Below, one piece after another: positions 5,420 through 42,155 of a stretch of 64,000 nt of DNA. Numbering within the stretch: the stretch's first letter is position 1; the number at the start of each line of letters is the position of its first letter. A program made the translations under genes and the position numbers. The notes under the pieces were generated by a model. The model saw only the letters and a list, made by a program, of their open reading frames with translations, ran no database searches and was not told the DNA's origin. The stretch lies in assembly GCF_006546655.1 (NCBI RefSeq), contig NZ_VIAQ01000015.1, positions 62,001 to 126,000 of the forward strand. The letters run 5' to 3'. This DNA is from Methanolobus vulcani (lineage in GTDB: Archaea; Halobacteriota; Methanosarcinia; Methanosarcinales; Methanosarcinaceae).

Positions 5420-6334
5420 ATGGTAAAAGTAGACAAATTCATTCCTAAAGCAATTGAAAAAATCCAGAAGCAGATTGATGGTAAAGCTATCATCGCACTA
5501 TCTGGTGGTGTTGACAGTTCAGTTTGTGCAATACTTGCACACCGTGCAATCGGTGATAAACTTACACCAATTTACATTGATACAGGTCTTATGCGCAAAG
5601 GCGAAACCGAGAGGATAAAGGAAATCTTCTCTGATATGAACCTTGAAGTCGTTGATGCAAAAGACCGTTTCCTTTCAGCTCTTGCAGGTATTGATGATCC
5701 GGAAGAGAAGCGCAAGGCAGTTGGTGAGGCATTTATTCGTGTTTTTGAGGAAGAAGCAAAATTACTCAAGGCTGAGTACCTCATTCAGGGAACCATCTAC
5801 CCTGACAGAATTGAATCAGAGGGGGGCATCAAGTCCCATCACAATGTAGGCGGCCTTCCATCAGTTATGGACTTCAAGGCAATTGTTGAGCCAATAGATG
5901 ACCTTTATAAAGATGAGGTTCGTGAAGTTGCCCGTGCACTTGAGCTTCCACACGAGATATCTGAGAGAATGCCATTCCCTGGGCCCGGACTTTCCGTAAG
6001 GATTGTTGGCGAGGTAACTGAGGAACTTGTCGAGGCCGTAAGAGAGGCCAATGCAATCGTTGAGGAAGAACTCGTAGAGCAGTTCCACCCATGGCAGACC
6101 TTTGCCGCAATTGTTGGCAAAGGAACCGGTGTAAAGGGTGATGTCAGGGTTCACGGTTGGATCGTCGCTGTAAGGGCAGTAGGTTCAAGGGATGGAATGA
6201 CTGCAGAGGCAATGGAACTTCCATGGAGTGTCCTGAGAAAGATTGAGTCAAGGATTACTGCAGAGATCCCTTCTGTTGCAAGGGTGCTTTATGACCTGAC
6301 TCCTAAGCCACCTGCAACAATCGAGTTCGAGTAA
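5420..6334 (+). CDS. guaAb: GMP synthase (glutamine-hydrolysing), ATP-pyrophosphatase subunit
   Basis: 304 residues. In archaea GMP synthase is split, and this is the larger subunit, which adenylates XMP before amination with ammonia supplied by the separate glutaminase subunit. The P-loop-like SGGVDSSV lies near residue 30, followed by [11 protein letters not shown], and the C-terminal dimerisation domain ends [10 protein letters not shown] as usual. A longer in-frame extension back to 5243 exists, but ATG 5420 is chosen because it gives the family N-terminus ([15 protein letters not shown]) and GGAG sits at 5407-5410. The glutaminase subunit guaAa is not in the window. Confidence 0.95.
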
Positions 6335-31898: not shown

Positions 31899-32678
31899 TT
31901 ACTCTTCGGTTACCTCTTCCTCAAGTTCAGGAGCAGGGCCCATTGGTCTGTGTTCTCCTCCATACCCTTCAGGACGTGGGTTGTTTTCCCTGTATTCTTC
32001 CAGTATTTCCTTTAGTTCATCAAGTGAATCTACACTGTCGATGTCTTCAAGAAGCTCATCAAGTTCAGTTATCTGCTTCTCTATTTCTGCTTCTTCGTCA
32101 TCATCTTCAGTGTCTGCAAGCTTTTCATCGAGCATTTCGATTCTTTTGGTTATGTGTTCTGTTTCTCTCTCTACAAGATACTCCATTTCTTCATCATCTG
32201 AATCGAATACCATCTCTTTTACATCCGGTCTTTCACCCTTTACCGGATTCTCCGTCATCATAGATTCCCTGGCAGTTTCCATTATTTCTTTGATATCATC
32301 GAGTGTAGTTGCATCTTCGATGTCTTCAAGAAGCTCATTAAGTTCAGTTATCTGCTCTTCAATTTCTGCTTCTTCATCTTCATCATCTGTGTCTGCAAGT
32401 TTTTCTTCAAGCATTTCTATTTGCCTGGAGATGGATTCATTTGCTCTTTCTACAAGGAAGTCCATTTCTTCTTCTTCGGTATCAAAGACTGGAGCCTCCA
32501 TGTCATCACTGTCCATATCGGGAGCTCCGCAAGGACCGTGTCCCATCTTATGATCTACAGCTCCTCCGGAGTCATCTGATGTTTCTGTTTCATCGGCAAA
32601 GGCGCCTGGTGTCACAGCACATAACACCATTGCTACCAATGAAATACAGGTCAGTATTTTCAAGACTTTGTGTTTCAT
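31899..32678 (-). CDS. Secreted acidic coiled-coil protein with internal duplication
   Basis: 259 residues with a signal peptide (MKHKVLKILTCISLVAMVLCAVTPGAFA). Two copies of a roughly 73-residue unit follow, at about residues 67-139 and 157-229: each begins F-D-x-E/D-x-E-E-M-x-x-L-V-E-R, passes IEMLEEKLADTDD/IEMLDEKLADTED and EEQITELNELLEDI, and ends with a D-x-I/L-K-E-I helix. The pattern is strongly coiled-coil and acidic. The copies diverge evenly, so the duplication is not recent. Function unknown. It probably shares a transcript with the related protein at 31167, 96 bases downstream. Confidence 0.75.
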   Translation of the reverse strand: MKHKVLKILTCISLVAMVLCAVTPGAFADETETSDDSGGAVDHKMGHGPCGAPDMDSDDMEAPVFDTEEEEMDFLVERANESISRQIEMLEEKLADTDDEDEEAEIEEQITELNELLEDIEDATTLDDIKEIMETARESMMTENPVKGERPDVKEMVFDSDDEEMEYLVERETEHITKRIEMLDEKLADTEDDDEEAEIEKQITELDELLEDIDSVDSLDELKEILEEYRENNPRPEGYGGEHRPMGPAPELEEEVTEE

Positions 32679-33442
32679 TTTCTGTCTCCTTTTTCTCTGC
32701 CCTGTCAGAGAATTGCCTCAATTATTGGCGTGCTTCTGACATTTTCCAGATTTGCAGGCTTAAATATAAGGATACTTAGCAAAAAGAAGTTCAATTACGT
32801 CTTTAAATTTAAAAATAAAACTTCTATAAAGTTTTATTATTCGGGGAAACCTTTGAAATGCTTAAAACAAAAGATTAAATTTAAAATCTGATGTTGGATA
32901 TGTTGATGTCCGGAAGAAATTTGCAGATTTTATGTAATCTAATATCAAAGAAAAGCCTATGATGTGGTAATATTAAACCGGCTATTATTTTATTGTAATT
33001 GATTTCAATAAATGAGCTGTATGTAAGTTCAATTTTTAAAAGTTCGAATTTTCAATGCTATTAATAGTCATGTCCGATCTGTTTCTATGGTGTTGACAAA
33101 TGCCAATCTGTTCTCATCTCTTCTCAGAACTACTCTGATCAATCAATTTATAAATGTCGATATAACAAGTTTAAATCGATTATAAATTGATATTTTTAGT
33201 TTTTAACAGCTTTTGTCTATCTATATAGTTTTAATTTTAAATTATATTCTCAAAAAAGCTTTATAAAGCTTAAAATGCCTGATACTTGCTTATTATTTTC
33301 CTGAAAATCTCTTTCGCTTTAAGTATGTTTATATTTTAATCTCCCAATTCGGAGTATAATTCAAAAAACGTAAAGGTGCATTATACTATGTTAATTTGCT
33401 ATACACAATACCATAAAAAGAGAATAATCAGGAGGTGATCCC
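32679..33442. other. 764-base divergent intergenic region
   Basis: AT-rich and without a credible gene. It holds a repeated AAATCGATTATAAATTGATAT-type stretch near 33173-33193 and, before the 33443 gene, GTATGTTTATATTTTAATC (about 33323-33341), which resembles the promoters of the two C-rich RNAs. GGAGGTGATC at 33431-33440 is a full anti-16S match and gives the 33443 gene a very strong ribosome site. Confidence 0.45.
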
Positions 33443-34336
33443 ATGAAAAAGTTACCACTTATAGTATTGGGAGTTCTCGTAGTGATGGTGTTAATAATGG
33501 GTCTGTCGGATCGTGACAGGCACCATGGCTATGAAGGCAATTCTAAAATGTCTTCCAGCCCGCCGGAATACACATTATATGGTGAAGTCCAATCACCTGT
33601 TTCGAATGAAAAAATAAATCCAAAAGATGAGAAGTCATTTCTGGAGGATAATGTAGAGAAATCTGATGAGATAATTCTACGTCTTGAAGATTCCATAGAG
33701 CGTCTGGAAAACGAAGGAAAGGATGTAAGTGATCTTCAGGAAATGGTTACAGATTATTCATCACTGGTTTCCGATGCAAAGGCGTATCTTGAAAAGGCAG
33801 ATAGTGCAGAATCCGCCTCTGAAGAGGAGAAATACATTTCTTTGTCCAGAGAAAAGATGATCCAGTCTGATATCTTGCTGAAAAAGATATTTGTGGACAT
33901 GCACAATTATATGCCAGGGCCTGTTGAAATAACGGGAAATGAAAGTCTTGATGCCAATGGAAGCGGAGTAATAATTCTCTCCGGTGATCTTGATGCCGAT
34001 ATCAGTATGTCTTCTGGAAAAATCTCTGTAGTAGACTTTGAAGGTGACATGTCTATTGATACGGATGAATTGGAAAATGCAAATATAGTTACTGAATCTG
34101 CAATTTCCACATCTGCAAATAATGAATCACATAGAATGATTTCTTATGTGGATGTTCAGGGCAATGTGAGCCTGTCAGGTTCAAGTATGACAATTGCTGT
34201 TATGGGTGACAATACAACTCTGCATGTAACTGGTTCTGGAGAAATCCAGCTCTATGGAAATGGAAGTTATTGTCTGGATAATTCCGGTTCTGTAACTGAA
34301 GGGTTCTGGTTAGCACCTATATTTGATACTGTATGA
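33443..34336 (+). CDS. Secreted protein of duplicated envelope module, copy 1
   Basis: 297 residues. An N-terminal hydrophobic segment (KKLPLIVLGVLVVMVLIMGL) is followed by a His/Asp-rich linker, a helical middle of about residues 65-155 (EDNVEKSDEIILRLEDSIERLENEGKDV, likely coiled coil) and a beta-rich C-terminal half with SGVIILSGDLDADISMSSGKISVVDFEGDMSID and YVDVQGNVSLSGSSMTIAVMGDNTTL, resembling a repetitive adhesin or DUF4097-like strand pattern. The paralogue at 36170 has the same layout. It is followed 45 bases later by a membrane regulator. No known family recognised; surface-exposed by inference. Confidence 0.75.
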   Translation: MKKLPLIVLGVLVVMVLIMGLSDRDRHHGYEGNSKMSSSPPEYTLYGEVQSPVSNEKINPKDEKSFLEDNVEKSDEIILRLEDSIERLENEGKDVSDLQEMVTDYSSLVSDAKAYLEKADSAESASEEEKYISLSREKMIQSDILLKKIFVDMHNYMPGPVEITGNESLDANGSGVIILSGDLDADISMSSGKISVVDFEGDMSIDTDELENANIVTESAISTSANNESHRMISYVDVQGNVSLSGSSMTIAVMGDNTTLHVTGSGEIQLYGNGSYCLDNSGSVTEGFWLAPIFDTV

Positions 34337-34381: not shown

Positions 34382-35191
34382 ATGAAAGTGACATCCTTTG
34401 CAGGTTGCATTGCCATCCTTCTTATTTTATCTACAGTAGCTGGTGCAGAGAACACTGCAACTGTTCATGGTGTGGCTTATGACTGGAGTACTCTTGCTCC
34501 TCTGGATAATGTTATAATTGAAGTAAACTCCACTCCTGCGCAATCCATAGTTGCAAAATATGGAGTGTATTCTTTTGATCTTCCGGAAGGGAACTATCGT
34601 ATAACTGCAAGTTATTACATGAATAATGATCTTATTTGCTATGACGAGGAAGATATTACGATCGCAGATGAAGGAAATTATGTCGTAGATCTGCTATTGA
34701 TTCCTTCATATTCGAATAACAGTACACAAGAAACTATTAGTTCTATTAGTTCTAGTTCTGTCCATTCTTCTATCAACCTTCTAACGTTATCTGTTATCGT
34801 AGTCCTGATTTTACTTGCTTCACTGGTTTTCAAAATACGGAACCCCGAGAAAACAGGGGTATTGGCGAAAAAACAGGAAAACAGGTCAAAATCATTTCCA
34901 AATAATACAGGCAAAACGAATTCGAGTCATTTAGTTCTTCAAAATACGTCCGCATCCAAAAATAGCATGCATAATCAACAATCAGCCGCATTGAGTTCCG
35001 AGCATCTGGAAATACTTGATATTATTCGCTCTGCCGGTGGAACAATGTCACAAAAAGAATTACGTAAACATCTGAGCTATTCAGAAGGTAAGGCAAGTGT
35101 AATGATTTTTGACCTTGAAAATAGAGGTTATATAAAGAAAGTAAAAAAAGGCCGTGGAAATATCCTGTATCTTATCGAAATGGATGCCTGA
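34382..35191 (+). CDS. Membrane-anchored winged-helix regulator with extracellular domain, copy 1
   Basis: 269 residues. Signal peptide (to about residue 22), an outside carboxypeptidase-regulatory/PEGA-like beta domain at 23-105 (ATVHGVAYDWSTLAPLDNVIIEVNSTPAQS), one membrane helix near 135-155 (LTLSVIVVLILLASLVF), a Ser/Asn-rich linker and a C-terminal winged helix at about 205-269 (EILDIIRSAGGTMSQKELRKHLSYSEGKASVMIFDLENRGYIKKVKKGRGNILYL). This is a one-component sensor design: outside domain, membrane helix, DNA-binding domain inside. The paralogue is at 37081. The operon partner at 33443 may present the signal; this is inference. Confidence 0.8.
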   Translation: MKVTSFAGCIAILLILSTVAGAENTATVHGVAYDWSTLAPLDNVIIEVNSTPAQSIVAKYGVYSFDLPEGNYRITASYYMNNDLICYDEEDITIADEGNYVVDLLLIPSYSNNSTQETISSISSSSVHSSINLLTLSVIVVLILLASLVFKIRNPEKTGVLAKKQENRSKSFPNNTGKTNSSHLVLQNTSASKNSMHNQQSAALSSEHLEILDIIRSAGGTMSQKELRKHLSYSEGKASVMIFDLENRGYIKKVKKGRGNILYLIEMDA

Positions 35192-35473
35192 TTCGGCAAA
35201 TCTGAAGGCCAAATGCCCTGTTTTTGTGTTCTCTTATCCTATCATACATAATTACAATTTCCCATGTATCATATCTTTTAATTGATATCATAAATTTACG
35301 CATTTATAAGGCTCAATGTGTGTTTTAAAAGTTCCAAACTCTCCTAATAAGCGTTAAAACATCTATATGATCTTTTTTTATGATTTAATGTAGCTATAAA
35401 GTATTAAATCCAATATTTGGTGGATGATCCTTTTTCTTGTAAGTATGCTTTTATTTAAAATTACCAATTGGTG

Positions 35474-35631
35474 AATTGCCCGACAACTACTATGTTGGAG
35501 GGCACCACCCCACTTAGGTGGCACCTAACCCCCAACCACATCCAGCCTAAGGTGCCACCACTGTACCAACAACCCCCTCCTCGCTTAAGAGGTGCCCACC
35601 CTATCCGGGGCATCTCTTAACCGATACGGAG
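35474..35631 (+). ncRNA. C-rich structured RNA element, copy 1
   Basis: A TATA box TTTTATTTAAAA (35449-35460) predicts transcription from about 35475. Three hairpins follow. P1 (35478-35503): GCCC, GA/GA internal loop, CAAC/GTTG, GGGC. P2: GGTGGCACCT 35517-35526 with AGGTGCCACC 35550-35559. P3: TTAAGAGGTGCCC 35585-35597 with its complement 35608-35620, one G-U pair. The tail CCGATACGGAG ends just before a small ORF. The same architecture recurs at 38311-38478 with compensating base changes in P2. Cytosine content is far above the surrounding DNA. Confidence 0.7.
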
Positions 35632-35655
35632 TAAAAAGGTGAATATTTGCCTGAT

Positions 35656-35886
35656 ATGAAAGATACCTTAAAGCAATTCATAGACTCAAGGCTTCAGGAA
35701 GCAACTCGTGCCCAGGCCATTTATCCCAATAATGTATATGTTGCATCCGGTCTGATCAAACAGCTTAAATCCGATAAGTTACATGACCTCTCAGAGTCAT
35801 CCTCACGTGATTCTGACTTTAAGGATATTGACATTTCCAGATGTCACCATATAAAGACGCCAGCAAAGAAGGATTTCCTTTGGTGA
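35656..35886 (+). CDS. Small hypothetical protein after C-rich RNA, copy 1
   Basis: 76 residues from ATG 35656 (MKDTLKQFIDSRLQEATRAQ); a TTG at 35647 is also in frame and is closer to AGGTGA at 35637-35642, so the true start is uncertain. Soluble, mixed charge, ending HHIKTPAKKDFLW. No family recognised. It begins 25 bases after the conserved RNA tail, so the RNA may control its translation. Confidence 0.5.
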   Translation: MKDTLKQFIDSRLQEATRAQAIYPNNVYVASGLIKQLKSDKLHDLSESSSRDSDFKDIDISRCHHIKTPAKKDFLW

Positions 35887-36169
35887 TATTTTATATTTGT
35901 TTGTTCTTATCTTTGCTAGTTTGTTCCTATGGTCTTCAGGCCGTTTTCTGCTTTATCGGCCCAAGTCCATATTTTTATATTTTGGATACTTGATTTCAAT
36001 TGGTCGATTTTTATTTATAAAACGGGCAGTCTCATGGCTATCTTTTTATATAAATACAATTCATTGAAAGAGAGAAAACGTTTAATGCAGATGATATCTG
36101 TTACCTTGTAATAGTGCAGACACATAATTATAATTAATTTAATTAATTGATCTCAGGATGTGGCCATCA

Positions 36170-37066
36170 ATGAAAAAAATGCCTCTTACAGTATTAATTA
36201 TCCTTATGTTAATGGTTGTAATTTCAGGTTTGGCTGATTCTGATGATTCACATCCGTATTCTGATGACAGACAGGATGATCACAGAGGTCGTTCTGCACC
36301 TCCTTTAGATGTGTTTACTCTATCTCCCACGATGAATGAAGAAAGTTTCCTTGAAGATAATATAGATAAATCCGAATCAATGGTTCTAAGGCTTGAAAAT
36401 GCCAGCCAGGAACTGGAGAATAAAGGGAATGATGTTTCTGATCTTAAGGGAATGATAACGTATTACTCTCATTTAGTATCTGAATCCCGTTCTTATCTTG
36501 AAATGGCGAATTCTGCGTATTCAGAAGATGAAAAACAGAAGTTTCTGGGACTGTCCAGAGAGAGTATAATCAAGGCGAATTCAGAACTCAAACCAATACT
36601 GGATGAAATGAAGGAATATCTTCCTGGTCCTGTTATACTGGAGAACAACACACTCAATGCACAAGGTAGCGGAGTTGCCATTCTATCAGGCGATCTCGAA
36701 ATGAGTTTTTTCCTGACAGAAGGCAAATTCTCTGTGGTTGATTTTGATGGCAACATGATTATTGATATGGATGCTGATTATAGTATGGAATCCCCATCAG
36801 AAAGGATGCTTCCGACTGATTTGGCTAAATCTCACACAATGGAATCATATATCGATGTAACAGGTAATGTTTCCATATCAGGTTCTGCCTGTACAGTAGC
36901 TATTATGGCAGATAATATGACCCTGACTGCAACCGGACAGGGTGAGATTGAACTTATAGGAAATGGAACTTATTATCTCGATAACGGTATATCTGAAGAA
37001 CAAGAAAATGTGTGGATGATACCAATATTTGAAAGGACAGATGTTGGAAAACCGTTCAAGGAATGA
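36170..37066 (+). CDS. Secreted protein of duplicated envelope module, copy 2
   Basis: 298 residues and paralogous to 33443. N-terminal hydrophobic segment MKKMPLTVLIILMLMVVISGLA, then an Asp/His-rich linker (DSHPYSDDRQDDHRG). The middle is helical (LEDNIDKSESMVLRLENASQELENKGNDVSDLKGMITYYSHLVSESRSYLE), aligning closely with copy 1. The C-terminal beta part includes GSGVAILSGDLEMSFFLTEGKFSVVDFDGNMIIDMD and YIDVTGNVSISGSACTVAIMADNMTLTATGQGEIELIGNGTYYLD. ATG 36170 is preferred to 36158 by alignment with copy 1. The membrane regulator follows 14 bases later or overlaps, depending on its start. Confidence 0.75.
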   Translation: MKKMPLTVLIILMLMVVISGLADSDDSHPYSDDRQDDHRGRSAPPLDVFTLSPTMNEESFLEDNIDKSESMVLRLENASQELENKGNDVSDLKGMITYYSHLVSESRSYLEMANSAYSEDEKQKFLGLSRESIIKANSELKPILDEMKEYLPGPVILENNTLNAQGSGVAILSGDLEMSFFLTEGKFSVVDFDGNMIIDMDADYSMESPSERMLPTDLAKSHTMESYIDVTGNVSISGSACTVAIMADNMTLTATGQGEIELIGNGTYYLDNGISEEQENVWMIPIFERTDVGKPFKE

Positions 37067-37080
37067 CAGGGTTGCGTGAC

Positions 37081-38052
37081 ATGAAATCAGTATATTATAT
37101 CTGCTGTATTGTAATTCTCCTGGCAATGACAGGTATTGGGTCAGCAGCTAATATTGCAACAGTGCATGGCGTAGCCTATGAATGGAGTACGTTTGATCCT
37201 CTTGACAATGCTATCATTGAGGTAAACTCAACACCTGCACAGTCAATGGTGGCTCCGTATGGTGTATATTCCTTTGAACTGGCAAATGGCACATACACAA
37301 TCACTGCAAGTTATTATGAGGATGATCAGCTTACTTATTATGCAGAGGATGTAATTACAGTTTCAGAAGAAGGAAACTATGTTCTTGATCTATTACTGGT
37401 TCCTTCCTATTCCAGTTCCAATGAATCAGCATCGGATACGGAGAGTTCATCAGATACTAACAGTAATTCTCTTCTTTACGGTTCCATACTGCTTATCGCT
37501 GTTCTTCTTGTTCTTCTTATATCCCAGATGAAACAAAAACCACAAACTTCAAAGCACGCCGGTGTAAAGAAGGAAGAAGTTTATCATGCTGCTGTGGAAG
37601 TTCCTGCTAAGGTTGAACAAAAACCTATACAGCATGAGGAAAAAACAGTGGTCACTGAGATAGAGACTTCAAACACGACAGATATTATGCAGGAACCAGA
37701 GCAGGATATCATCGAATTAGAAGAACCCGATACTAAAATTGAGGAACCTGTGGATGAAATATCTGCTCCTTCCATGAAGTCTGAATCAGTGGTTGAGGGG
37801 CGTGAAACAGTGTCCTCCTCCCCTCAGGAAACGGTTATTTCAAATGAGCCTGTTCCTGCTGACCTTCAGGAAATACTGGACATACTGAAATCCCAGGGAG
37901 GAAGGATGACGCAGAAAGATATGCGTAAGCGCCTGAAGTACTCAGAAGGAAAGGTAAGTCTTATGCTTCTTGATCTTGAGAAGAGGGGTAAGATCCAGAA
38001 ATTCAAGAAAGGGCGTGGTAATGTCCTTTTCCTCGTGGAATCTGAGGAATAA
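37081..38052 (+). CDS. Membrane-anchored winged-helix regulator with extracellular domain, copy 2
   Basis: 323 residues from ATG 37081 (37063 is an in-frame alternative). Signal peptide, PEGA-like outside domain (ATVHGVAYEWSTFDPLDNAIIEVNSTPAQS), membrane helix near residues 137-155 (LYGSILLIAVLLVLLIS), a Glu/Val-rich cytoplasmic linker of about 105 residues, longer than in copy 1, and a C-terminal winged helix (LQEILDILKSQGGRMTQKDMRKRLKYSEGKVSLMLLDLEKRGKIQKFKKGRGNVLFL). The DNA-binding domain is the most conserved part between copies, so both may read similar operators. Followed by the second C-rich RNA. Confidence 0.8.
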   Translation: MKSVYYICCIVILLAMTGIGSAANIATVHGVAYEWSTFDPLDNAIIEVNSTPAQSMVAPYGVYSFELANGTYTITASYYEDDQLTYYAEDVITVSEEGNYVLDLLLVPSYSSSNESASDTESSSDTNSNSLLYGSILLIAVLLVLLISQMKQKPQTSKHAGVKKEEVYHAAVEVPAKVEQKPIQHEEKTVVTEIETSNTTDIMQEPEQDIIELEEPDTKIEEPVDEISAPSMKSESVVEGRETVSSSPQETVISNEPVPADLQEILDILKSQGGRMTQKDMRKRLKYSEGKVSLMLLDLEKRGKIQKFKKGRGNVLFLVESEE

Positions 38053-38310
38053 TTTCTTCTTTTTATGTTATGATTTAATTCCTGATATCCTATATTTGCC
38101 AATTTTTTCCAAAACTATCTTTAATGTGTAATATTCAATGATAACTCTTTAAATGTAGATTAGTTATACTATACGTCATTGATAAGTTTTGAAGTCACTT
38201 ATAACTCTCTGTTTATCTATTATATGCTCTATAAAGCTTCATTACCAAATTCTAACTGATTTTGACTCTTTTTGAAATAAGTATGCTTTTATTTAAAACT
38301 GCTAATTTGG

Positions 38311-38478
38311 GGATTGCTTGTCAGCAGTGAGCTGGCAGGCAACCACCCAAGCTAAGGTGGCACCAACCCCAACCACATCCAGCCTGGTGCCACCAATGTA
38401 CCAACAACCAACAACCCCCCCACTCGTGTAAGGGACACCTGTTACCTATCCATCAGGTGTCTCTTATCCGACACAGAG
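38311..38478 (+). ncRNA. C-rich structured RNA element, copy 2
   Basis: Same order as at 35474: TATA TTTTATTTAAAA (38287-38298); P1 38314-38342, 12 pairs with loop AGTGA; P2 GGTGGCACCA 38356-38365 with TGGTGCCACC 38385-38394; P3 TAAGGGACACCTG 38429-38441 with 38454-38466. The P2 closing pair changes from T-A in copy 1 to A-T here, a compensating change, and P3 differs in sequence while keeping 13 pairs. Loop strings CCCCAACCACATCCAGCC and CCTATCC and the joint TGTACCAACAACC are kept. The tail CCGACACAGAG precedes a small ORF. Confidence 0.7.
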
Positions 38479-38487
38479 GCATGAATT

Positions 38488-38664
38488 ATGAACACTAATA
38501 ACATGCAGATTATGTTTGAAGAGAAAGCTACTGGCGGTTCTACTGAGCAGAGAGGAGCAAACGAACATGAAAATGCAATATCTTCTTTGTGTAGAAAACT
38601 GAATTCAGAACAGATGTGTCGTTTGATCAGAATCTCTCCGTCAGAGTATGTGGGGGAGAAATAA
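38488..38664 (+). CDS. Small hypothetical protein after C-rich RNA, copy 2
   Basis: 58 residues, MNTNNMQIMFEEKATGGSTE..., ending RISPSEYVGEK. The purine-rich CAGAGG at 38474-38479, nine bases before ATG 38488, is a likely ribosome site and overlaps the conserved RNA tail. It is unlike the small protein after copy 1, so the RNA, not the protein, is the shared part. No family recognised; could be a short regulatory or leader peptide. Confidence 0.5.
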   Translation: MNTNNMQIMFEEKATGGSTEQRGANEHENAISSLCRKLNSEQMCRLIRISPSEYVGEK

Positions 38665-38761
38665 GTTGTTACCTACGGCAATTTGATAAAATATAATTAT
38701 ATACAATTTAATATTTATTATAGGGTATTATGATAAACACGGGAATGATTTGAGGTATATC

Positions 38762-39517
38762 ATGGACGAGAATCTCAATAATACTGAACAAGAAAAACAG
38801 CCGCAAAATGGCACTCCAGATACTCTCATGCGTCTTACAGACGTATGGAAGATCTACAAAATGGGAGAGGTCGAGTTTGCAGCACTAAAAGGTATTGATC
38901 TGGAGATCATGCATGGTGAATTTGTAGTTATACTTGGTCCAAGTGGAAGCGGTAAGAGTACAATGATGAACCTTCTGGGCTGCCTTGATCTCCCAAGCAA
39001 GGGAGTTGTTGAACTCAACAACAAGGACATTGCTAAAATGAAAGAATCCGAGCTTGCCCAGATAAGGGGCCAGTTAATTGGTTTCATTTTCCAGACATTC
39101 AACCTGCTTCCTACATTAAACACCATTGAAAATGTGATGCTGCCTCTTGAATTTCAGGAAGCAGATCCGGATGAATCATGGAAAAGAGCAGAGGAACTCT
39201 TAGATGTAGTAAGTCTTGGAAATAAAAAATACAATCTTCCTTCCCAATTATCAGGAGGACAGAGGCAGAGGGTTGCTATTGCACGATCACTTGCAGTAGA
39301 TCCGAAAGTAATCCTTGCGGATGAACCAACTGGTAACCTCGACAGTGAAACAGGAAATTACATACTTGAATTCCTGGACGATCTTCACAGAAGAGAAGGC
39401 AAGACAATCATAATGATTACTCACGACCCGGAACTGACAAAGTATGCGGATCGTGTTGTTCATATCAAAGACGGAATGGTCGATAATATAGAGATAATAA
39501 AGCGTGAAGCAATGTGA
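38762..39517 (+). CDS. ABC transporter ATP-binding protein (MacB/LolD type)
   Basis: 251 residues. Walker [16 protein letters not shown] near residue 57, Q-loop [23 protein letters not shown], signature [16 protein letters not shown], Walker [18 protein letters not shown] and H-loop [14 protein letters not shown]. The DEPTGNLDS string marks the LolD/MacB subfamily, whose members work with FtsX-type permeases to move proteins, lipids or peptides by mechanotransmission. ATG 38762 has GAGGTAT upstream and is preferred to TTG 38750. The stop overlaps the next gene's earliest start, so 38762-42155 is one operon. Confidence 0.92.
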
Positions 39518-39522
39518 TAAAA

Positions 39523-40893
39523 ATGAAAAAAATTCTATTATTAATGTTAGTATTGCTGCTGCCAATAAGTAATGCAGCAGCAAGTTTAAGCGCAGCTGCA
39601 TCTGGAGTGAGTGTGGATCTGATGACTCAGAGTCCCTATCCTGCAAGACCAGGTGAAACAGTAGAATTGACAGTTAGTCTTCAGAACCAGGGAAGTAGCG
39701 ATCTCTCTGATATAACTGTTAGTGTAGATGCCGAATATCCTTTTAGTCAGGTATCCGGTGAGTCCTTGACCAAGACGATTTCTTTCCTTGAAGCTCGTCA
39801 GGACGAGGAAGATGCAACACTTATAAAATTTAAGCTAAAAGTAGATTCAGATGTATCAGATGGCACTTACGATGTAGATGTAATTGTAAAAGACAGTGAC
39901 TCAGATTCAAGTTCCCGCACAACCCTCGAAGTTGAAGTACAGGGTAAGGAGTATGCACAGATTGTTACCATAAGTGATTCAAGCATCGATGTTGCAACTG
40001 TAGAACCTCTTGAGTTTGTCATAACCAATACAGGTTCATCAGATCTACAGAATATAGAGGTTTCATGGGAAGAGGCAACCGGTGTAGTTCTGCCTGTATA
40101 TTCATCTAATACTAAGTACATAAATTCCCTGGGTGTCGGTGAATCTGCCACAGTGGTATACTCTGTGATGGCAGATGTAGATGCGGATCCAGGATTGTAT
40201 CAGCTTGATATCACACTTGAGTTTGAGGATTATGACTCCGACACGACCTTGATAGAAACGAAAGCCGGTCTGTTTGTAGGAGGCACCACTGACTTTGACC
40301 TGAGTTATTCCGAAAGTGACGAAGGTGAAGTTTCACTGTCCCTTGCAAACGTAGGTAACAATGAGGCTTACTCTGTAAAGGTATCAATACCTGAACAGGA
40401 CAATTTCCAGGCAACAGGAAGTACCTCAACAATTGTCGGTAACCTTGAGAAAGGTGACTATACAATCACCTCATTCTCAATAAGTCAGACCAGTTCAATG
40501 TCTTCAATGGATGAAGACTCTGATGATGGAACTGCCAGTGCAGAACCTGGTGAGATGACAGAAGAGGACATGGAGGCCATGCAGGAAGAAATGGAAGCAA
40601 AGAGTGAGCTCCTTGTCAACATTGAATACACAGACTCTGCAGGTCAGAGGCACACCGTTGAAAAGGCTGTTCAGATCGAGGAATTGACTGGCGGCACAAT
40701 GGGAGATATGGCCGGCGGACCAGGAGGTCAGAGCTCATCATCTAACAGTTACCTGTTGTACGGTGCTGTTGCACTGGTAGTAGTAGTTGTAGGATTCAAT
40801 TACAGAAAGAAGAAGATGATGAAAGCAGGTAACTATGTTCCACTCAACGTAGAGCTAAGAAATCTCAAGGCTAAAATACTGAAGAAGGACTAA
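39523..40893 (+). CDS. COG1361-like surface protein with NEW3-type domains, partner of ABC exporter
   Basis: 456 residues. Signal peptide (MKKILLLMLVLLLPISNAAA), several beta-sandwich repeats typical of NPCBM-associated NEW3/CARDB domains (PARPGETVELTVSLQNQGSSDLSDITVSVD, and VEPLEFVITNTGSSDLQNIEVSWE), a Met/Glu/Ser-rich acidic stalk (about 325-370) and a C-terminal membrane helix YLLYGAVALVVVVVGFNY followed by RKKKMMK. So it faces outside with a short basic tail inside. It sits between the ATPase and the permease genes; a periplasm-like adaptor role is inferred. Confidence 0.85.
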   Translation: MKKILLLMLVLLLPISNAAASLSAAASGVSVDLMTQSPYPARPGETVELTVSLQNQGSSDLSDITVSVDAEYPFSQVSGESLTKTISFLEARQDEEDATLIKFKLKVDSDVSDGTYDVDVIVKDSDSDSSSRTTLEVEVQGKEYAQIVTISDSSIDVATVEPLEFVITNTGSSDLQNIEVSWEEATGVVLPVYSSNTKYINSLGVGESATVVYSVMADVDADPGLYQLDITLEFEDYDSDTTLIETKAGLFVGGTTDFDLSYSESDEGEVSLSLANVGNNEAYSVKVSIPEQDNFQATGSTSTIVGNLEKGDYTITSFSISQTSSMSSMDEDSDDGTASAEPGEMTEEDMEAMQEEMEAKSELLVNIEYTDSAGQRHTVEKAVQIEELTGGTMGDMAGGPGGQSSSSNSYLLYGAVALVVVVVGFNYRKKKMMKAGNYVPLNVELRNLKAKILKKD

Positions 40894-40895
40894 AA

Positions 40896-42155
40896 ATGAG
40901 GCGCAGTACCTATATCAAGCTTGCTACTAACATCCTGGTTCACAGCAAGATCAGAAGCTGGCTCACTATAATAGGTATCGTCATAGGTGTAGGATCAGTT
41001 GTCACCATCATGGCACTGAGTGATAGTATGGCTGCAGATATGGAAGAACAATTTGCAGATATGGACCTTACTTTGATTCAGATAACTCCTGGTTATTCCC
41101 ATGCATCATCTGGAGGGCCAGGAGGAGGAGGTCCGCCTGGCATGGGAGGTAGTTCGTCAAGTGCTTCCTCCGATGACGATGACCCGGAGTTGACAAAAAA
41201 GGATATACAGGCCTTAAAAGCGGTTGACAACTTAGATTACATCTATGGAGAGATATCCGGCAGTGATCTGGAAGTTTACTTCATGGGTGAGACTGCGGAT
41301 CTTTCGATAACAGGTGTTGATAGTCAGGTGTGGCAATACACCGTAACCTATGAGCTGGAATCCGGCAGATTGCTGGATGCCTCTGATGCTAACGTCTTTG
41401 TAATAGGATATGGTATAGCTCATGACATGTTTGACGATGAAGTCGGCCTGAACCGTGTGTTAACCATCGAAGGTAAATCCTACAGGGTCGTCGGCATACT
41501 GGCAGAAGATGAAGATGACAATTCAATATTCATGCCGATAGATGCAGCAGTTGAGATCATTGAAGACGCAGAAGATGGTGTATATGATACTATTGTCGTA
41601 AAAGCATCTGATGTAGATTACGTTGAAACGGCCGTTGACGATATCGAAGAACGTTTGATGCTATCAAGAGGTATCATGGACGAAGATGACAGGGATTTCT
41701 CTGTTTCAGATTCATTATCACGGGCAGAATCTGCCAGTGAGATGATGGAGTCCATGACAATATTCCTTGGAGCCATAGCAGGAGTTTCACTTCTTGTGGG
41801 TTCTGTGGGTATTGCGAACACGATGTTCACATCAGTAATGGAAAAAACCAAGGAAATAGGAACTATGAAAGCTATCGGTGCCAAGAACGGAGATATTTTG
41901 ATGATATTCCTGTTCAACTCAGCGCTTGTAGGCTTTGTCGGAGGTGTGCTTGGTATAATACTAAGTCTTGTGCTGACATCGCTGATGCCGTACCTTGGAA
42001 TTTCTATGATGCGCTCATCCATGGGTATGACCGTTGCTCCATATCTGATGGTGCTGGGTATCTCCATTGCGGTGCTTATAGGAGTAATATCAGGTATTAT
42101 CCCGGCATACAATGCTTCAAAGATGAAGCCGGTAGATGCACTGAGATACGAATAA
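40896..42155 (+). CDS. ABC transporter permease (MacB/FtsX type)
   Basis: 419 residues. First membrane helix near residues 22-43 (IRSWLTIIGIVIGVGSVVTIMAL), a large outside domain of about 230 residues (MacB-PCD-like, with a Gly/Ser/Asp-rich insert near 70-95), then three C-terminal membrane helices (MTIFLGAIAGVSLLVGSVGIANTMFTSVMEKTKEIGTMKAIGAKNGDI, GGVLGIILSLVLTSL and VLGISIAVLIGVISGIIPAYNASKMKPVDALRYE). The EIGTMKAIGA and P-A-x-x-A-S-K-M-x-P-V-D-A-L-R motifs are typical. It starts two bases after the surface-protein gene. Confidence 0.92.
   Translation: MRRSTYIKLATNILVHSKIRSWLTIIGIVIGVGSVVTIMALSDSMAADMEEQFADMDLTLIQITPGYSHASSGGPGGGGPPGMGGSSSSASSDDDDPELTKKDIQALKAVDNLDYIYGEISGSDLEVYFMGETADLSITGVDSQVWQYTVTYELESGRLLDASDANVFVIGYGIAHDMFDDEVGLNRVLTIEGKSYRVVGILAEDEDDNSIFMPIDAAVEIIEDAEDGVYDTIVVKASDVDYVETAVDDIEERLMLSRGIMDEDDRDFSVSDSLSRAESASEMMESMTIFLGAIAGVSLLVGSVGIANTMFTSVMEKTKEIGTMKAIGAKNGDILMIFLFNSALVGFVGGVLGIILSLVLTSLMPYLGISMMRSSMGMTVAPYLMVLGISIAVLIGVISGIIPAYNASKMKPVDALRYE

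Follow-up and report, generated by a model that had tools for sequence, protein, structure and literature searches.

Archaea have so far yielded few examples of conserved cis-regulatory RNAs. The closest described systems are the structured mRNA leaders and riboswitches of bacteria and, within the Methanosarcinales, the Methanosarcina mazei trans-acting RNAs sRNA162, sRNA154 and sRNA41, which feature exposed loops, some of them C-rich. In the genus analyzed here, long 5' UTRs are common in Methanolobus psychrophilus R15 (PMC5378194), and the main text of that report makes no mention of a three-hairpin RNA. Two copies of such an RNA reside in the window (the whole stretch of 64,000 nucleotides of Methanolobus vulcani DNA analyzed). 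As in bacterial leaders and riboswitches, its hairpins are conserved and feature compensating changes, it lies directly before a ribosome site, and its presence is tied to one kind of operon. Unlike them, the Methanolobus RNA is archaeal, has no Rfam match, evolves fast between genera, and is followed by small proteins and an exporter, not by a metabolic pathway; no small-molecule ligand candidate emerges from the gene content of the locus. Unlike the M. mazei RNAs, with which it was compared in sequence through Rfam only, it adjoins a ribosome site and a reading frame. No account of it was found in open-licence papers. The RNA represents a real and apparently undescribed archaeal leader RNA family, and probably serves small proteins and an exporter operon as a structured 5' leader, rather than being a free-standing duplicated RNA. 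The two copies are organized as follows.

35475 to 35627, + strand: RNA1 (copy 1), three hairpins; 167.4 bits in cmsearch, being itself in the training set; fold z -6.2
35477 to 35504, + strand: P1 of RNA1, arms 35477-35487 and 35494-35504, from the fold and the pairing simulation
35517 to 35559, + strand: P2 of RNA1, arms GGTGGCACCT (35517-35526) and AGGTGCCACC (35550-35559), C-rich loop AACCCCCAACCACATCCAGCCTA
35581 to 35624, + strand: P3 of RNA1, TCG 35581-35583 plus 35585-35597 paired with 35608-35620 plus CGA 35622-35624, CCTATCC in the loop
38313 to 38474, + strand: RNA2 (copy 2), three hairpins; 152.7 bits in cmsearch; fold z -5.3
38314-38325 and 38331-38342, + strand: P1 of RNA2
38356-38365 and 38385-38394, + strand: P2 of RNA2
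38424-38426 plus 38428-38441 paired with 38454-38467 plus 38469-38471, + strand: P3 of RNA2

Each RNA folds better than 200 out of 200 dinucleotide shuffles, and no ORF of at least 60 aa covers RNA1 or RNA2. The 18-nt loop string CCCCAACCACATCCAGCC is found exactly twice in the window, 0.01 occurrences being expected even at up to 3 mismatches. A first-pass annotation had described two copies sharing a TATA box, three hairpins and a CCTATCC loop, with a tail placed at the ribosome site in both, and had recognized no known riboswitch class. The layout is as described there, and Rfam holds no match for the RNAs: at the curated gathering score Rfam 15 detects two tRNAs only in the whole window, a permissive search of positions 35300-38800 yields sub-threshold chance matches only, all outside the RNAs, and no family is matched in 15 related loci.

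Pairing was monitored in 27 Methanolobus sequences over 35 named pairs. Standard pairs make up 95.2% of the cells, and pairing drops to 37-47% when the 3' partner is shifted by 1-3 columns. Changes on both sides are found in 16 of the 35 pairs, and stems vary by compensating steps, GU intermediates being seen. Covariation over all column pairs, measured against an AliSim null, gave 0 significant pairs, annotated or not, a test of low power over 11,026 pairs. The named-structure test, picked after the all-pairs test had failed, relies on 500 simulations of independently evolving sites on the ML tree, site rates included, the root being the paired consensus, so that simulations begin fully paired. 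Paired cells amount to 79.1 ± 3.4% in the null (maximum 89.7), and both-side cells to 18 ± 8 (maximum 51) vs. 76 observed; neither observed value is reached in any of the 500 runs. The same holds true separately for P2 (99.2% of cells paired) and P3 (97.9%), while the figure for P1 (87.4%) is equalled in 4 runs. Sequence comparison establishes selected RNA structure at P2 and P3, and makes it probable at P1, the structure being derived in all three cases from the same sequences as the test. P2 and P3 had been said to keep pairing while their sequence changes, and this is borne out.

The RNAs are part of a four-part cassette (A, B, RNA, small ORF) duplicated in tandem, and three exporter genes come after the second small ORF, those for the ABC ATPase, the CARDB-domain protein and the MacB/LolC-type permease, in this order.

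33443 to 34336, + strand: A1, 297 aa, signal-peptide protein
34382 to 35191, + strand: B1, 269 aa, membrane protein with a CarboxypepD_reg-like N-terminal part and a C-terminal winged helix (DUF7343)
35637 to 35642, + strand: ribosome site AGGTGA of s1
35647 to 35886, + strand: small ORF s1, 79 aa, TTG start (ATG there in genome G061)
36158 to 37066, + strand: A2, paralogue of A1
37063 to 38052, + strand: B2, paralogue of B1
38475 to 38479, + strand: ribosome site AGAGG of s2
38488 to 38664, + strand: small ORF s2, 58 aa, homologue of s1
38750 to 39517, + strand: ABC ATPase, MacB/LolD type; best model LolD, under the equivalog cut-off
39514 to 40893, + strand: exporter-operon protein, secreted, with CARDB domain; partner of the ATPase family-wide
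40896 to 42155, + strand: MacB/LolC-type permease

A1 and A2 are 48% identical; B1 and B2 align in two blocks, at 62% and 65% identity. Profile comparison by hhalign shows s1 to be a homologue of s2 (probability 98.4, E 7.6e-15), with a common core around KLxPEQMxRLxxIS, a result contradicting the first-pass statement that the downstream proteins are unrelated; the companion statement, that the RNA is the conserved part, fails because the whole cassette is duplicated. The copy-1 sequences of different species group together, apart from the copy-2 sequences (support 0.97), and the duplication is therefore older than those species and has not been homogenized. The tandem arrangement could suggest that conservation reflects a recent duplication, or a constraint at the DNA level such as protein-binding inverted repeats, rather than RNA. 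This is highly improbable in view of the old, separate clades, of the compensating stem changes with GU intermediates, and of the strand-specific position of the RNAs after a TATA box. B1 and B2 resemble winged-helix regulators that are anchored in the membrane and have a domain on the outside, and each of the 27 Methanolobus genomes has a more distant paralogue of them. G061 carries another exporter operon (L220, C1:890000-894500), the ATPase of which is about 90% identical; no promoter element of the kind described below was found upstream of it, nor any third RNA by a genome-wide model search of G061.

The element AAGTATNYTTWTATT has 4 matches in the window vs. 0.02 expected, all within 5.6 kb, and its sites precede RNA1, RNA2 and the nearby envelope genes, namely A1 and a divergent secreted-protein gene.

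32763 to 32777, - strand: promoter element upstream of the divergent gene 31899-32678, encoding a secreted acidic protein
33321 to 33335, + strand: promoter element upstream of A1
35441 to 35455, + strand: RNA1 promoter element AAGTATGCTTTTATT, the imperfect palindrome AAGTATGCTT leading into the TATA box
38279 to 38293, + strand: promoter element AAGTATGCTTTTATT of RNA2

The element marks four transcription units of one locus, is kept in all aligned RNA copies, and recurs in other genera before the homologous operon. With one mismatch allowed, a stricter pattern has 3 sites in the M. vulcani genome, all at the RNA locus; over 44 genomes of the family its sites number about 100, vs. 2 for the reversed pattern. 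Stretches similar to AAGCTTTATAAAGCTT were observed in several cases approximately 45-65 bp further upstream. As the element overlaps the expected BRE/TATA position, it could plausibly be bound by a regulator or act as a special core promoter; the gene neighbourhood makes the membrane winged-helix proteins B1 and B2 plausible candidates for regulators of these promoters, as a guess. The divergent gene may feature a 5' hairpin of its own (GTCAGA...TCTGAC, about 32740-32700, - strand), downstream of the promoter.

A small ORF begins at -4 to +33 nt relative to the end of the RNA in 28 of 31 copies, and GGTGA, GGAG or GAGG usually comes before it. In G054 the exporter ATPase comes directly after the RNA; the copy-1 loci of G046 and G059 have no clear ORF, the reading frames there looking degenerate. 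Because it is found just before ribosome sites in 28 of 31 copies, the RNA is most likely a structured 5' leader.

By BLASTN against 112 genomes of the family, copies were found in Methanolobus. The first-pass annotation had proposed a covariance model search of relatives, and this too yielded further copies: the model (27 sequences), searched against 186 genomes of the order, matched 21 at E ≤ 1. The last two of these matches (G111, G145) were judged due to chance, as was a pattern match in G109; R1 matches lying antisense to P3, which are hairpin palindromes, were left out of the counts, and the match in G068 is weak if taken alone. Two RNA copies reside in 13 Methanolobus genomes and one in G054, and a single unit with altered loops in the divergent genomes G040, G044, G047, G050 and G056. 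The exporter CARDB protein is encoded by 19 of 27 Methanolobus genomes. The RNA was found in all 19, two weakly by model score, and in none of the 8 lacking the exporter, one of which (G048) is only 70% complete. Seventeen of the 19 were detected by the whole-genome model search; in G044 the RNA was found at E 0.002 by a local search, and G050 shares promoter and architecture, the RNA scoring only E 0.19-0.31.

The arrangement A, B, promoter, leader, exporter is shared with other genera of the family, the part from B onward being seen in g2, g5, g7, g10, g11 and g13. Alignment with the Methanolobus RNA fails for most leaders of these genera. Several have folds more stable than those of shuffles (z -1.2 to -6.0), and many end with a GAGGCAYC...GRTGCCTC hairpin, as judged by eye. 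Since most of them miss the model, the leader sequence is dispensable for the operon in general. In G002 (g2), a match of 27.1 bits (E 5e-6 in 27 kb), the model being aligned to its last hairpins, is only suggestive of homology. Two clear copies (48.9 and 46.4 bits) are found in G081, a member of the Methanosarcina-like genus g13:

L098, 5845-6000 and 8483-8638, - strand: two RNA copies of G081 with promoter and 11-codon ORF (MKIMGCTYYSK)

One precedes a gene of no assigned function, the other a gene for a cytochrome-like membrane protein together with a dehydrogenase-like one; a module of about 335 nt (upstream region, promoter, RNA, 11-codon ORF), followed by AT-rich sequence, is duplicated before these unrelated genes. 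Methanolobus and G081 sequences make up one RNA family, leaders elsewhere being analogous in position only.

The duplication of the G081 module away from the exporter keeps alive the idea of a free-standing, trans-acting small RNA, the C-rich loops of which would pair with G-rich ribosome sites elsewhere, the small ORF being incidental or the RNA cut from the mRNA. A promoter of its own, predicted by sequence, and the C-rich, G-poor loops, strongly conserved in Methanolobus, fit this idea, which is nevertheless unlikely: a ribosome site and a reading frame come directly after the RNA, no T-run terminator hairpin was found after P3 on the + strand by a scan covering archaeal termination signals weakly, and the divergent Methanolobus group lacks the C-rich P2 loop, the position being kept. 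Complements of the P2 loop are no more frequent in the M. vulcani genome than matches of the reversed control (32+23 sites vs. 28+21, at up to 3 mismatches), hence long antisense pairing is unsupported; short seeds would escape this count. What was found is a conserved structured RNA at a fixed spot before a ribosome site, and a cis-regulatory leader is favoured on comparative grounds by pairing conservation, fixed position, co-occurrence with the exporter, shared order in other genera and the promoter element. Counted against it are the other-genus leaders, mostly off the model, the missing small ORF in G054, the degenerate-looking ORFs at two copy-1 loci, the G081 copies before unrelated genes, the null result over all column pairs, and a ribosome site no more paired than in shuffles.

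As a leader, the RNA would be transcribed from P1 onward or from a start immediately ahead of it, some 25 nt past the TATA box of the AAGTATNYTTWTATT promoter, P1 being followed by P2, with its C-rich loop, and by P3, with CCUAUCC in the loop, ending a few nt short of the ribosome site of the small protein gene. The transcript would continue to A2-B2 (copy 1) or to the MacB/Lol-type exporter operon (copy 2), and the leader may gate the mRNA of the small ORF and the exporter, in its translation or its stability. Plain masking of the ribosome site is unsupported, because in Methanolobus sequences folded at 37 °C the site pairs no more than it does behind shuffled leaders (mean unpaired 0.34 vs. 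0.27). Masking by the C-rich linker was also rejected: changing linker C to A lifts mean openness only from 0.38 to 0.43, and shuffles mask at least as well. A leader controlling temperature response or stability with no specific partner, the hairpins shielding the 5' end or melting with temperature, would agree with P1 at the predicted 5' end, and with M. psychrophilus, in which long 5' UTRs are numerous and the choice of start site depends on temperature (PMC5378194). It is quite improbable, as loop sequences, not stems alone, are conserved in all main-group Methanolobus copies, and the predicted fold hides the ribosome site no more than shuffles do; pairing of the site at low temperature, the mark of an RNA thermometer, was not found, folding being at 37 °C only. 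For the gated leader, the same conserved, G-poor loops point to a partner, be it protein, RNA or ligand, by which they would be read.

The Methanolobus leader RNA combines clear comparative support with a defined gene context, would place small proteins and membrane-bound regulators in one regulon with an uncharacterized exporter, and its function is directly testable in the sequenced strains existing for M. vulcani, M. profundi and M. bombayensis. A bolder and rather doubtful possibility is a new archaeal switch class, in which a fast-evolving Methanosarcinaceae leader family, a membrane winged-helix regulator and the AAGTATNYTT promoter would tune an envelope-stress exporter, a molecule or protein being sensed via the G-poor, C-rich loops.

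Further variation was observed in leaders of other genera. The G002 leader (L219, 281-440, - strand, and upstream) has two GAGGCAYC hairpins along with a P2-like loop that is C-rich, CCCCCAATCCAACCACA, and a homologous exporter downstream. In g7 (L110, L111, L109 and L113, from G020, G021, G018 and G025, respectively), a long-range helix of 13-16 bp competes with the 5' hairpin GCUACCAC/GUGGUAGC, a predicted switch-like layout of the exporter operon leaders which is poorly kept in a fifth sequence (G019); this alternative helix is confined to the unrelated-looking leaders of g7. In the Methanosarcina-like G094 (L062, about 6090-6160), the promoter element and a P1-like hairpin, with neither P2 nor P3, precede a gene for a secreted coiled-coil protein.
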